DNA from: Mucilaginibacter sp. JRF
GTDB taxonomy: Bacteria; Bacteroidota; Bacteroidia; Sphingobacteriales; Sphingobacteriaceae
Assembly: GCF_015223065.1 (NCBI RefSeq)
Contig: NZ_JADFBY010000003.1
Location: 248,001 to 312,000 of the forward strand
Direction: 5' to 3'
DNA length: 64,000 nucleotides
Shown here piece by piece: positions 4,401 through 42,261 of the stretch. The notes beneath the pieces were generated by a model. It did not search any database. It was not told the origin of the DNA and saw only the letters and a list, made by a program, of their open reading frames with translations. The position numbers and the translations under genes are program-made. The first letter of the stretch is position 1, and every line of letters begins with the position of its first letter.

Positions 4401-4415
4401 TCGCTTTAAAATTCT

Positions 4416-4498
4416 TGTCATTTCGAACGAGGTACGAGGAGAAATCTGTCGCTTTGTAATGAATGCGTGCAGATTTCTCGCTATCGCTCGAAATGACA
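4416..4498. repeat. REP-like imperfect inverted repeat (TGTCATTTCGA arms)
   Basis: The left arm TGTCATTTCGAACGA, with GAGAAATCTG further in, pairs with the right arm CAGATTTCTC and TCGCTCGAAATGACA. A loop of roughly 15-20 bases separates the arms. The layout is that of a REP/BIME-type intergenic element. Copy number elsewhere in the genome cannot be seen here. Confidence 0.7.
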
Positions 4499-4511
4499 TA
4501 AGCATTAGGCA

Positions 4512-13440: not shown

Positions 13441-13571
13441 GATTTGAGATATTAGATGTGAGATTTGAGATAAACTCGCCGCTACAATCCAACAGCCCGT
13501 TGTTAATTATTAAAATGTTAGATATAAAAACCGAGAAAAATCTCACATCTCATATCTAACATCTCTTATCT
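13441..13571. repeat. Imperfect dyad in the rpoA-rplQ gap
   Basis: The left arm (13441-13472) is made of GAGAT and TTAGAT words. It pairs with the right arm (about 13539-13571) at roughly 27 of 33 positions. The arms are about 65 bases apart. The wording is shared with the dyads at 14611 and 15837. Confidence 0.65.
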
Positions 13572-14569: not shown

Positions 14570-14610
14570 TTATATCCTTTTTTTAGTTTCTAATTGTATT
14601 TAAACAGACG

Positions 14611-14674
14611 TGAGATATACAGTATGAGATATGAGTAATTAATTAAAAACCCATATCTCATACTATATATCTCA
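14611..14674. repeat. Dyad in the rpsD-rpoA gap
   Basis: The arm at 14611-14633 (TGAGATATA, AGTATGAGATATG) pairs with 14652-14674 at 22 of 23 positions around an 18-base loop. It ends 11 bases before the rpsD stop. Confidence 0.8.
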
Positions 14675-14685
14675 AATCCTATATC

Positions 14686-21480: not shown

Positions 21481-21540
21481 GTGAGCAGTAAATGGTGAGT
21501 TGCAAAGTATATCACTCACAACTCACCATTTACTGCTCAC
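21481..21540. repeat. Perfect 22-bp inverted repeat in the rpsN-rpsH gap
   Basis: Bases 21481-21502 (GTGAGCAGTAAATGG, then TGAGTTG) are the exact reverse complement of 21519-21540, with a 16-base loop. There is no T-run after it on the coding (minus) strand, so a simple terminator is unlikely. Confidence 0.95.
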
Positions 21541-21545
21541 AAATA

Positions 21546-36423: not shown

Positions 36424-36529
36424 TTTAATTTACTTTTTGTGATTTCACCGATTGATTTGTGATCTCACTGATTTATTGATTGATCAGCACCTAAGAGCTA
36501 TTTATTAGGCAATGATCTGTTTATTGATA

Positions 36530-36573
36530 ATTGCACTAATTCATTCGTGAAAACACAAACGAATCAGTGCAAT
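36530..36573. repeat. Dyad in the fusA-rpsJ gap
   Basis: ATTGCACTAATTC (36530 onward) pairs with the arm ending at 36573 at 17 of 20 positions, with a four-base loop. It starts 11 bases before the fusA stop is reached from the rpsJ side. Confidence 0.7.
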
Positions 36574-36584
36574 CATGTAAGATA

Positions 36585-38696
36585 TTAATCTTCTTCGCCT
36601 TTTTTGCGGCCTTTGTTTTTAGCCACAACCTCTTCCTGTACGTTACGAGGAGCTTCTTCATAGTGGTCAAACTCCATGGTTGAAGTTGCACGACCTGAAG
36701 TGATGGTACGTAATTGAGTTACGTAACCGAACATCTCAGAAAGTGGCACCATAGCCTTGATCACTTGTGAACCGTTACGGGTATCCATACCTTGCAGCTG
36801 GCCACGACGACGGTTCATGTCACCGATAACGTCACCCATGTTTTCTTCAGGGGTTAAGATCTCGATCTTCATGATCGGTTCAAGCAATACCGGTTTACAT
36901 TTTGGCAATGCCTCACGGTAAGCTGAACGACCGGCGATCTCGAAAGATAACGCATCCGAATCGACAGCGTGGAATGAACCATCTATCAAACGAACTTTTA
37001 AGCTTGTAAGCGGGAAGCCTGCAAGTACACCGTTATCCATTGCTGATTTGAAGCCTTTTTCAACAGATGGGATAAACTCGCGAGGGATTGAACCACCCAC
37101 TATCTCGTTAATAAATTGTAAGCCTTCTTTCTCGTCATCAGCAGGAGAGATGATAACTTGAATATCAGCGAATTTACCACGACCACCGGTTTGTTTCTTG
37201 TAAGTTTCGCGGTGTTGGGTAGTACCGGTGATAGCCTCTTTGTAAGCTACCTGTGGCGCACCCTGGTTAACCTCAACCTTAAACTCACGTTTCAAACGAT
37301 CCATGATGATATCAAGGTGAAGCTCACCCATACCTGAGATTACAGTTTGACCTGTATCCTGATCTGTTTGTACGCGGAAGGTTGGATCTTCCTCAGCTAA
37401 TTTACCAAGAGCGATACCTAATTTATCAACGTCGGCCTGAGTTTTAGGCTCAATAGCCAAACCGATAACCGGCTCAGGGAACTGCATTGACTCTAACACG
37501 ATAGGGTGTTTTTCGTCGCAAAGGGTATCACCTGTTTTAATATCCTTAAAGCCTACTACCGCGGCAATATCACCTGCACCTACGTTAGGGATAGGGTTTT
37601 GCTTGTTAGCATGCATTTGGAATATACGAGAGATACGCTCTTTGTTCTCTGAACGCATGTTGTATACATATGAACCGGCATCCAGGTTACCTGAATAAAC
37701 ACGGATGAAGCACAAACGACCTACGAATGGGTCGGTAGCGATCTTAAATGCAAGGGCTGAGAATGGCTCTTTAACATCCGGCTGACGGGTGATCTCCTCA
37801 CCTGTTTCAGGGTTAGTACCGGTGATAGCGTCAACATCAAGTGGCGAAGGCAACAACTCCATTACATAATCAAGCATGGTTTGTACACCTTTGTTTTTGA
37901 ATGATGAACCGCAAGTCATCGGAACGATCTTACCGGCTAATGTAGCCTGACGTAAAGCGTCAAGAACTTCACGCTCAGTGATAGTGGTAGGATCGTCAAA
38001 GAATTTCTCCATCAGCGTATCGTCAAACTCGGCAACAGCTTCAAGTAATTTTTCTCTCCACTCGTTAGCTTCGTCAATCAGATCGTCAGGAATCGGCACT
38101 TCGGTAAAAGTCATACCTTTATCGTGCTCATTCCAAACCACACCACGGAAGTTGATCAAATCAACCACACCTTTAAAGCCATCTTCAGCACCGATAGGGA
38201 TTTGCAGTGGTACAGCGTGGCTGCCCAGCATCTCTCTTACTTGCTTAACAACTTTCAAAAAGTCAGCACCTGAACGGTCCATTTTGTTAACGAAACCGAT
38301 ACGTGGTACGTTGTAGTTGTTAGCCAAACGCCAGTTAGTTTCTGACTGTGGCTCAACACCATCAACTGCTGAGAAAAGGAATACCAGACCATCAAGTACA
38401 CGTAATGAACGGTTTACCTCTACGGTAAAATCCACGTGACCCGGGGTATCAATAACGTTTACCTGGTATTTGTTGCTGCGGTAGTTCCAGAACACGGTAG
38501 TAGCTGCCGAAGTGATGGTGATACCACGCTCCTGCTCTTGCGCCATCCAGTCCATCGTAGCTGCACCTTCGTGCACCTCACCAATTTTGTGGCTCACACC
38601 GGCATAATAAAGAATACGCTCGGTAGTGGTGGTTTTACCGGCATCAATGTGAGCGGCAATACCTATGTTTCTTGTATATTTAAGATCTCTTGACAT
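36585..38696 (-). CDS. fusA: Elongation factor G
   Basis: 703 aa. The GTPase motifs are [19 protein letters not shown], the [10 protein letters not shown] switch, [12 protein letters not shown] and [11 protein letters not shown], with the later EF-G domains full length. It drives translocation on the ribosome. It sits between rpsG and rpsJ as in the str operon; both flanking gaps carry inverted repeats. Confidence 0.99.
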
Positions 38697-38717
38697 CTTT
38701 TGTTATTTATTGATTTG

Positions 38718-38776
38718 TTGAATTACTGATTTAATGATTAATAGTATGTTACTTAATCAACAATTCAGTAATTCAA
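38718..38776. repeat. Dyad in the rpsG-fusA gap
   Basis: TTGAATTACTGA (38718 onward) and its TGATTA end pair with 38754-38776 at about 20 of 23 positions, with a 13-base loop. The sequence words differ from those of the dyads near rpoA. Confidence 0.75.
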
Positions 38777-38791
38777 TCCATCAGTAATATT

Positions 38792-39888: not shown

Positions 39889-40848
39889 TTATAAAGCGCA
39901 TATCTCCCTGATACTCTCGCTCACCGGTTTAAATTCAATGCCGATAGCTTTCTTGATCTTGGAGTTATCAAAGTACTTGGTGGTAACAGCTGATTGTGCA
40001 GCTATTTTATCAAGGAATGGGTCTTTACCGGTAATGGCGGCAATAAAGGCTGCGGCGCGCCAGGCCAGGTTCATCACCCAGGGTTTGGCTTCTTTGGCGG
40101 GCACCGGTATGCCGTAGCCCTGAGCTATTTCTTCAACTAACTGTTTATACGCAAGGTTTTCGGAATTGATAATGAAGCGCTCGGCGGTAATATCGCTGTT
40201 CATCAGCGCGATCATGCTTTTGGCTACATCCTGCACATCAACCAATCCGGCGGTGCCGCTGGTGTAAAACTTCAAGCCCTTACGTACCGTATTAAATATC
40301 TGCCCGGTACCCTCATCTCCGGCATTTACACCGATAATGAGCGATGGGTTTACAATAACCGCATCCAACCCTTCGGCAATACCGCGCCACACTTCCATCT
40401 CGCTTTCCAGCTTTGATATGGCATAACCGTCGGTTTCGGTACTTACATCTAAATGGGTATTCTCTGTAATAACCTCACCGGGCTTAGCCAGGCCCAATGC
40501 CGCGATGGAGCTTACATGCACCAGCTTGCAATTATTATCAAGGCACAGGTTTACTATGTTAGCCGTACCCGCAACGTTGGCGGCAATCATCGGGTTTTTT
40601 TCCTTTTGCTTTAACGACACCCATGCCGCGGCATGATACACCTGCGTTACACCTGCAAAAGCATCCTCCAAAGCGAACACATCCAGCATATCCGCATCAA
40701 ACCATTCAATAAGCGCCGCATGGGGTTTCAGTATCTCAGGTATAACCGACGATGCACGTTTAATACAACGCACACGCTCACCCTGCTTTACCAATTGCAA
40801 AGCAACCTCAGCCCCCAAAAAACCTGTTGCGCCAGTTATTAAGATCAT
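39889..40848 (-). CDS. NAD(P)-dependent SDR, dihydroflavonol-reductase-like
   Basis: 319 aa of the extended short-chain dehydrogenase family. GATGFLGAEVALQLV binds NAD(P), SSIAALG supplies the serine, and YAISK the Tyr-Lys pair. It is close in layout to dihydroflavonol-4-reductase/3-beta-HSD-like bacterial proteins, whose substrates are mostly unknown. The ATG comes four bases after an ACATTTG sequence lying in the 38-bp inverted arm, suggesting a nearly leaderless transcript. Confidence 0.8.
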   Translation of the reverse strand: MILITGATGFLGAEVALQLVKQGERVRCIKRASSVIPEILKPHAALIEWFDADMLDVFALEDAFAGVTQVYHAAAWVSLKQKEKNPMIAANVAGTANIVNLCLDNNCKLVHVSSIAALGLAKPGEVITENTHLDVSTETDGYAISKLESEMEVWRGIAEGLDAVIVNPSLIIGVNAGDEGTGQIFNTVRKGLKFYTSGTAGLVDVQDVAKSMIALMNSDITAERFIINSENLAYKQLVEEIAQGYGIPVPAKEAKPWVMNLAWRAAAFIAAITGKDPFLDKIAAQSAVTTKYFDNSKIKKAIGIEFKPVSESIREICAL

Positions 40849-40851
40849 GCT

Positions 40852-41055
40852 GCAAATGTGCGAATTGTTTTTGAACTATTGTCTGAACCAGAATTATCGG
40901 AGTTGTCTGAACCAGAATTTACGGAATTTGTCTTGAACCTGAATTTTCAGAATTAATGAATTAGCAGAATGTGAAGTACCCAAGAAATTCTGAAAATCCT
41001 AAAATTCTGAAAATTCAGGTTCAGACAATAGTTCAAAAACAATTCGCACATTTGC
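40852..41055. repeat. Long inverted repeat spanning a divergent gap
   Basis: Bases 40852-40889 are the exact reverse complement of 41018-41055 (38 bp). Inside the arms are several TCTGAACC, CAGAATTT and TTCTGAAAAT words in both orientations. The structure fills the 231-base gap between the SDR and ureohydrolase genes and reaches to within 4 and 24 bases of their starts. Confidence 0.95.
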
Positions 41056-41079
41056 ACTTCAACATATCCGCACATCAAT

Positions 41080-42261
41080 ATGTCATTAGCTGATTTTTTT
41101 ACCCCGATAGACCTGAAGCGTATAACTCCTAAAAAGGGCTATTACACCAGTCAGTTAGGCGCAAAAATTGAGCATCACTCTGTTGATTTTCCTGATCTGG
41201 AGCAAAAGGTTGACATTGCCATAATTGGTGTTCAGGAAGGCCGCAATGCCGATAATAATGATGGCTGCTCGCACGGGCCGGATCATGTGCGCGAAAAGTT
41301 ATATATACTTAACGAGGGTAATTACAATACCAAGATAGTCGACCTGGGTAACATCAGGCAGGGTGCCGCGGTTACTGATACTTACTATGCCCTTAAAACC
41401 GTAGTGGAGGAACTGATCAAACAAGATATCTTTCCATTAATAATAGGCGGTAGCCAGGATCTGACCTATGCCCAGTATCTCGGTTACGAAAACCTGGAAC
41501 AAAAGGTAGACCTGGTGGTGATCGATTCGCATTTTGATATTGAGGATGACACCAATCACGGCACTATTGAAACCTCATCGGCATCGTACTTAAGCAAAAT
41601 ATTTTTGCACGAACCTAACTACCTGTTCAACTTCAGTAACCTGGGGTATCAAACCTACTTCACCAGCCAGGAAAGCCTGCGCGTAATGGAGAAGCTATAT
41701 TTTGATGTGCATCGACTGGGTGAATTGAGCGGACAAGTTGCCGTTACCGAGCCCATCGTACGTAATGCCAACATGATCAGTTTTGACGTTTCGGCCATAC
41801 GCTCGGCCGAGGCTATGGGGAATGCCAACGCTACGCCAAATGGTTTTTACGGCGAGGAGGCTTGTCAGCTTTGCCGATACGCGGGCTTTAATGACAAGCT
41901 AAGTTCGATAGGATTTTACGAATACAACCCGGCTTACGATAGCAACGGCCAAACCGCCATGCTGCTGGCGCAAATGATATGGTGTTTTGTAGATGGTTTT
42001 TATAACCGCAAGCGCGATTTCCCGCTCAACCCGAAATCGCAGTATCTGATATACAAAACCAGCCTTAAGCACGACGACCATGAACTGGTATTTGTAAAAA
42101 GCAAAAAATCCGACCGTTGGTGGATGCAGGTGCCCTACCCTACGCATGGCTCTATGAATGAGCGTTTCCATTTGGTGCCTTGCAGGTACGAGGATTATAA
42201 AACTGCCGTATCCGGCGAAATGCCCGACCTTTGGTGGCGCACTTATCAAAAACTCGCCTGA
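41080..42261 (+). CDS. Formimidoylglutamase/arginase-family protein with altered metal site
   Basis: 393 aa with the ureohydrolase fold: IIGVQEGRNADNNDGCSHGPDHVRE, LIIGGSQDLTYAQYLG, VVIDSHFDIEDD and NMISFDVSAIRSAEA. The motif that is usually GGDHS reads GGSQD (Q126 for His), and the usual SxDxD reads SFDVS (S238 for the second Asp). D149, H151, D153 and D236 remain. Each manganese site would lose one ligand. It may be a formimidoylglutamase-like enzyme with one metal, or a noncatalytic relative. Such proteins are widespread in Bacteroidota. Confidence 0.75.
   Translation: MSLADFFTPIDLKRITPKKGYYTSQLGAKIEHHSVDFPDLEQKVDIAIIGVQEGRNADNNDGCSHGPDHVREKLYILNEGNYNTKIVDLGNIRQGAAVTDTYYALKTVVEELIKQDIFPLIIGGSQDLTYAQYLGYENLEQKVDLVVIDSHFDIEDDTNHGTIETSSASYLSKIFLHEPNYLFNFSNLGYQTYFTSQESLRVMEKLYFDVHRLGELSGQVAVTEPIVRNANMISFDVSAIRSAEAMGNANATPNGFYGEEACQLCRYAGFNDKLSSIGFYEYNPAYDSNGQTAMLLAQMIWCFVDGFYNRKRDFPLNPKSQYLIYKTSLKHDDHELVFVKSKKSDRWWMQVPYPTHGSMNERFHLVPCRYEDYKTAVSGEMPDLWWRTYQKLA

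Follow-up and report, generated by a model that had tools for sequence, protein, structure and literature searches.

The 231-bp intergenic gap at 40849-41079 of the window (the whole 64,000-nucleotide stretch of Mucilaginibacter DNA that was analysed), between divergent epimerase/SDR and arginase-family genes, is most likely a gene-less palindromic repeat rather than a promoter pair or a switch. More precisely, a dispersed palindromic element is rather probably present in this gap as a gene-less copy, nested in a second word family (GCACATTTGCAC) that is common here in relatives. The copy is read as gene-less because its inner words align best to the arms of GxxExxY genes and because of the states found between leuC and leuD in the genus (see below). 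The features of the gap are collected in Table 1.

Table 1. Coordinates, in window numbering, of the flanking genes and of the words that make up the gap
Feature	Position	Strand	Basis
NAD-dependent epimerase/extended SDR gene	39889..40848	-	PF01370
Arginase-family (ureohydrolase) gene	41080..42261	+	PF00491
Left arm (39 bp, perfect), made up of the outer GTGC word TGCAAATGTGCGAATTG, the linker GTTTTTGAACTA and the beginning of the inner family TTGTCTGAACC	40851..40889	+	sequence, repeat search
Right arm (39 bp, perfect), the left arm in reverse complement	41018..41056	-	sequence, repeat search
Three tandem left modules of the inner TTGTCTGAACC-NGAATT palindrome family, the third degenerate	40879..40952	+	repeat search
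Inner family, right half: ATTCTGAAAAT words ending GGTTCAGACAA	40985..41028	-	repeat search
Outer words on the right, CAATTCGCACATTTGCA and CCGCACATC, from the second family (GTGC), which is common at the same gap in relatives	41040..41079	-	

The two arms are reverse-complementary without a mismatch over 39 bp, one more than the 38 bp given in the preliminary description, and at 93% over an extended 54 nt, with 98 nt in between. That description placed them 4 and 24 bases from the start codons; the left arm lies in fact 2 bases from the SDR start codon (gene end 40848) and the right arm 23 bases from the ATG at 41080. From the outside inwards, each arm consists of 17 bases of GTGC words, the linker and then the inner TTGTCTGAACC-NGAATT words. 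As had been reported, words are repeated between the arms in both orientations: the left modules start at 40879 and 40903, with the degenerate third at 40929, and the single right module (41012-41028) is on the minus strand. According to the repeat search, the centre between the arms is itself mostly palindromic. When up to 3 mismatches are allowed, the window has 3 occurrences of the 17-base inner word, all within the gap, and this number was reached in 2 of 100 shuffles of the window. The predicted RNA fold of the gap has an energy of -91.1 kcal/mol, compared to a mean of -40.8 for 200 dinucleotide shuffles (z -11.9, no shuffle as good). No match to GxxExxY or IVP was found in the gap.

The inner words are not confined to this gap. 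A search of the window's own genome returned 44 matches at E <= 1, counted over both strands and including the gap itself and matches confined to the outer words; the matches over the inner region fall on at least eight contigs (C1, C2, C4, C5, C6, C8, C10 and C12). The 14-mer TCTGAACCNGAATT, with up to 2 mismatches, occurs 149 times versus 74 for the pattern read backwards, and 17 of the occurrences among the places listed are exact. The exact inner 17-mer is present in 19 of 35 same-genus genomes and in 2 of 166 other genomes of the family, and its reversed pattern is absent from all 201. A scan of named genomes for the inner repeat gave at least 119 stretches, of which 47 among those listed are from Mucilaginibacter (hand count). 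Many matches to the 17-mer lack a second arm, and some of them, from distant phyla, look accidental; copies with both arms no more than 160 nt apart number 52, the window being counted twice. The TTGTCTGAACC-NGAATT words are thus a dispersed palindromic repeat, nearly restricted, within the family, to the genus. Whether the arms are unique to the locus, a point on which the preliminary description had let its own proposals depend, receives a divided answer, as the inner words are dispersed and the own-genome search for the whole 39-bp arm gave no second match spanning it entirely.

What ties this repeat to a gene is the company that such palindromes keep in the genus. GxxExxY matches are found in 47 of 61 genomes (some copies are split or carry stops) and IVP matches in 60 of 61, the window's own genome having 2 and 3, respectively. 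Two proteins of each kind were tested with Pfam: those of the GxxExxY kind fall in the PD-(D/E)XK superfamily (PF13366) and those of the IVP kind in PF05635, one of the latter also giving a weak bAvd match. The flanks were compared for 60 loci, namely the best matches, up to 30 per search, plus the own-genome loci; L187, L191, L213 and L237, which are cut by contig ends, were left out. Inverted-repeat flanks scoring at least 18 were found at 27/28 GxxExxY loci and 29/32 IVP loci, against 14/404 control ORFs of similar size and mixed taxa, drawn from the 119 stretches of named genomes and 30 loci of the ureohydrolase. Block-shuffled flanks reached this score in 4/140 (GxxExxY) and 1/160 (IVP) cases. 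Flanks mispaired between different loci of the same gene family did so in 161/756 and 135/992 cases, a high rate that comes from the sharing of words between loci. By eye, the flank words vary from locus to locus: TCTGAACC-type words flank L197, L204, L208, L209 and L212, and the own-genome locus L184 is flanked by diverged GAATT words.

The three control ORFs with the highest flank scores encode an IVP (L047), a Y1 transposase (L054) and a GxxExxY protein (L146); the last of these genes lies inside the window's inner word family in another Bacteroidetes genome. The IVP gene, in Niastella, sits inside an inverted repeat (L047:3236-3643) and has a weak bAvd match, which we take as a hint of a link to the accessory proteins of diversity-generating retroelements. 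The Y1_Tnp (RAYT-like) gene, L054:814-1203, has a strong flanking inverted repeat and is carried by a Mucilaginibacter contig that also holds TCTGAACC copies.

The window's palindrome aligns to the arms of the GxxExxY locus L197 with a score of 34, while its dinucleotide shuffle scores 19. When all gaps with an inverted-repeat score of at least 16 were aligned in the same way, terminators included, a score of 25 or more to GxxExxY or IVP arms was obtained for 11/37 palindromic gaps, 2/37 shuffled and 4/72 control gaps, with nearly equal medians (21, 19 and 19, respectively). Terminal inverted repeats are thus common to the window copy and gene-bearing GxxExxY loci at few independent places. 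By hand comparison, in the genomes covered by both searches, only 3 of 66 places with the 17-mer have a GxxExxY gene no more than 500 bp away, and each of the three is between leuC and leuD; therefore, the link from gene to word rests on few independent places, L146 and L209 being others. Three genomes of the genus (G011, G016 and G048) carry the exact 17-mer at 5 places and have no GxxExxY match, which means that the gene is now dispensable for the persistence of copies; its lack may be compatible with past activity there.

The interval between leuC and leuD offers the best evidence that gene-less and gene-bearing forms would be states of one thing. A leuD gene turned up in 56 of 61 genomes, a count that includes distant paralogues; 30 of the loci were read. 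A GxxExxY gene stands between GAATT-word arms in 12 of them. Nine of these copies end in a GTTCAGA word; at the end of the other three, among which is the copy of the window's own genome, only AATTCTG words were seen. One locus (L348) has a 64-nt gap with a TCTGAA palindrome and no gene, and three (L336, L340 and L351) are without the element. The remaining 14 have other content, several of them, by eye, with palindromes of other words.

The gap between the SDR and ureohydrolase genes can itself be followed in relatives. The ureohydrolase is present in 58 of 61 same-genus genomes; among the 30 loci read, the SDR gene is adjacent in 27 and the gap is no longer than 600 nt in 25. An inverted-repeat score of at least 16 is reached by 21 of these 25 orthologous gaps, versus 25 of 250 shuffles. 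Allowing 2 mismatches and counting without a shuffled control, GTGC words are found in 24 of 27 gaps and a TCTGAA-type word in 7 of 27, the window's own included; in L154 and L166 the latter matches are probably due to chance. On visual inspection, the nearest relatives, L151 and L152, clearly show TCTGAA words, L170 has half a copy, and the gaps of L160, L175 and L177 possibly hold remnants; TTTGAAAAT words are carried by L154, L155 and L166, and L165 has another kind. A motif scan for TTTGAAAAT matched every gap and was disregarded. The outer GTGC words often reach both start codons in relatives (by eye), and in L153 and L157 the same gap is only 59-60 bp long. Most simply, a GTGC palindrome would have been there first and have received the TCTGAACC copy afterwards. 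Elsewhere, nesting of this kind is only mildly enriched: 7/52 copies, with the window counted twice, compared to 119/2652 mispaired and 8/520 shuffled.

From the protein family and the states at leuC-leuD, we infer nuclease-driven copying with empty passengers. Some copies of the word family hold a GxxExxY gene of the PD-(D/E)XK superfamily between their arms, and empty copies consist of the arms only. The spread of copies may proceed by cutting and copying: a GxxExxY-type nuclease would act in trans and recognize the palindromic ends. The window copy, which has no gene, would then be a non-autonomous passenger, presumably with no dedicated role in the expression of its neighbours. If transcribed, the RNA of the gap is predicted to form a long hairpin, a plausible substrate of RNase III by analogy with rRNA intervening sequences. 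That the gap could be a mobile palindromic element had been suggested before, and of the earlier proposals it is the one that fares best: the dispersal of the inner words and their match to the arms of gene-bearing elements agree with this, and movement itself is something that we infer. A target-site duplication is absent: direct repeats of at least 4 nt accompany 4 of 52 copies, versus a rate of 5.7% for mispaired ones. The preferred reading leaves unaccounted for the perfect 39-bp arms and the linker, which belongs to neither word family.

The perfect symmetry, even in the linker, is one reason to consider that slippage and template switching built word palindromes locally, one arm being copied onto the other; the low complexity of the words, and the finding that at some gaps they differ between sister species, speak in the same direction. 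Nevertheless, we give little credence to such in-situ mutation, as the same 17-mer recurs across many loci and species. Moreover, arms are no more alike within a copy than between copies (p = 0.60, n = 44). Since arm-to-arm copying is unsupported in these 44 copies, the perfect 39-bp arms appear as a peculiarity of the window copy. A less remote idea, yet an unlikely one, is that the palindrome is or was mobilized by a Y1 tyrosine transposase, as REP sequences by RAYTs. Y1_Tnp genes are found in 56 of 61 same-genus genomes, copies persist in genomes devoid of GxxExxY, and the lack of a target duplication would fit this chemistry, that of IS200/IS605 elements, which leaves none. But the window's genome, 99.94% complete, has dispersed copies and no Y1_Tnp match at E <= 0.001, although this may be compatible with a lost RAYT, and the flanks of the one Y1 gene inspected (L054) look unrelated to the window's words.

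The two other alternatives would give the gap a role in the expression of its neighbours. The preliminary description proposed that the arms are one duplicated promoter, giving matched expression of the SDR and ureohydrolase genes. The divergent orientation of the genes, the closeness of the arms to both start codons, to which the outer GTGC words often extend in relatives, and the palindromic nature of this gap in most of them would all suit twin promoters. This proposal did not hold up, and we now regard it as improbable: similar palindromes lie between co-directional genes, the inner words occupy a minority of the orthologous gaps, and in two relatives the gap measures only 59-60 bp. Indeed, all the word palindromes of the window that can be compared with sister species lie between co-directional genes, except the one at 40849-41079. 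The gap also lacks promoter-like patterns, a scan for TTTG-N17-21-TAnnTTTG, sigma-70 and terminator patterns finding none in it, which is weak evidence since the patterns were loose. Perfect inverted arms are, finally, the usual layout of invertible switches, in which a recombinase would flip the centre and so toggle both genes; we consider this very improbable, because the centre is itself palindromic and arms of the same words are found in pairs at many loci, in the manner of an ordinary repeat.

The gene-less palindromic repeat has parallels in known systems. MITEs are gene-less copies that keep the ends of a gene-bearing element, and the window copy likewise shares its terminal inverted repeats with gene-bearing GxxExxY loci; unlike them, it is without a target-site duplication, and we know of no transposase for it. 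The intervening sequence (IVS) of Coxiella rRNA has, according to an excerpt of PMC4990558, a 28-bp terminal stem and tandem heptamers upstream of the S23/IVP ORF and is excised by RNase III; elements of this type are proposed there to be transposon remnants or mobile elements. The likeness lies in a small ORF inside terminal inverted repeats and in the same IVP family (PF05635), which occurs in the word palindromes of the genus. However, the IVS lies within 23S rRNA genes, whereas the window copy lies between two protein genes, has no gene, and has inner words that go with GxxExxY rather than with IVP. REP families are described with tags and RAYTs in part of the text of PMC3733652, and REPs and BIMEs, as portrayed there, resemble the window repeat in being palindromes that are scattered between genes, often occur in pairs and have been linked, as a proposal, to a transposase; in contrast, the window's genome has no Y1 transposase match. 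Passages of other papers report IVP genes within cas loci (PMC3936711) and palindromic candidate RNAs in Bacteroidetes (PMC8040213). Among the matches listed from the open-licence literature, no account was found of IVP or GxxExxY word palindromes between protein genes.

Taken more widely, the data suggest, quite tentatively, a class of small mobile elements that could be called word palindromes: two arms of imperfect words, about 7-10 nt long, that enclose a gene for IVP (four-helix) or for GxxExxY (PD-(D/E)XK), or no gene. One genus would harbour many such word families, and one family could replace another at fixed intergenic slots between sister species, with place and self-complementarity kept. 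If this were true, selection or copying would act on the palindrome as a unit and not on its letters. This wider pattern is of more interest than the result for a single gap. It connects palindromic arms with IVP and GxxExxY, both of them poorly understood protein families, and leuC-leuD shows states with the gene, without it and with no element at all; therefore, the purpose of rRNA intervening sequences and of their protein becomes testable in a genus with cultured strains. It also cautions against reading such palindromes as promoters or switches.

The comparison of sister species was based on syntenic gaps defined by genes, with a palindrome score of at least 16, terminators and other repeats included. 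Palindromes coincide in 8/50 gaps for G000-G037 (one-sided 10 and 2; p = 0.0023) and in 9/63 for G000-G001 (one-sided 10 and 4; p = 0.0013); sharing is non-significant for G037-G001 (4/74 gaps; one-sided 6 and 14; p = 0.19). The three tests are not independent, since gaps were pooled from two regions and species are shared. Four further species, with 5-14 reciprocal best hits with the region, were left out. Earlier sets of 5, 7 and 12 gaps, delimited by blast segments, gave no significant sharing of palindromes, and the gene-based gaps were used instead. The letters of coinciding palindromes are at chance level in 4/8 pairs for G000-G037, 2/9 for G000-G001 and 2/4 for G037-G001, the rest being recognisably related; one AT-rich gap (G000 C2:318971), which is counted in each of the three comparisons as palindromic with replaced letters, is probably no word palindrome. 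Word replacement is thus real at some gaps, but it is not the rule.

Two places in the window are clear cases of replacement. At 13441-13571, a gene-less palindrome of GATTTGAGATATTAGATGTGAG words has as its counterparts in G037 and G001 palindromes of the GAATCAAGAATTAAG type, with chance-level similarity to G000. At 21481-21541, between co-directional genes, the words of the palindrome differ, by eye, in all three sister species, the score in G001 being 15, below the cut-off of 16. The word palindrome at 38707-38788 stands between two genes that we take to be EF-G-like and S7-like; the words of the sister species look different, but by score the G000-G037 pair is recognisably related, and G001 reaches only 13. 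For the word palindromes in the co-directional gaps at 36425-36589 and 14570-14685, the letters of G000 are recognisably related to those of one sister species each. A further family of dispersed palindromes, GTCATTTCGAACGAGGTACGAGGAGAAATCTG, is represented at 4410-4507, with similar copies elsewhere on the contig.
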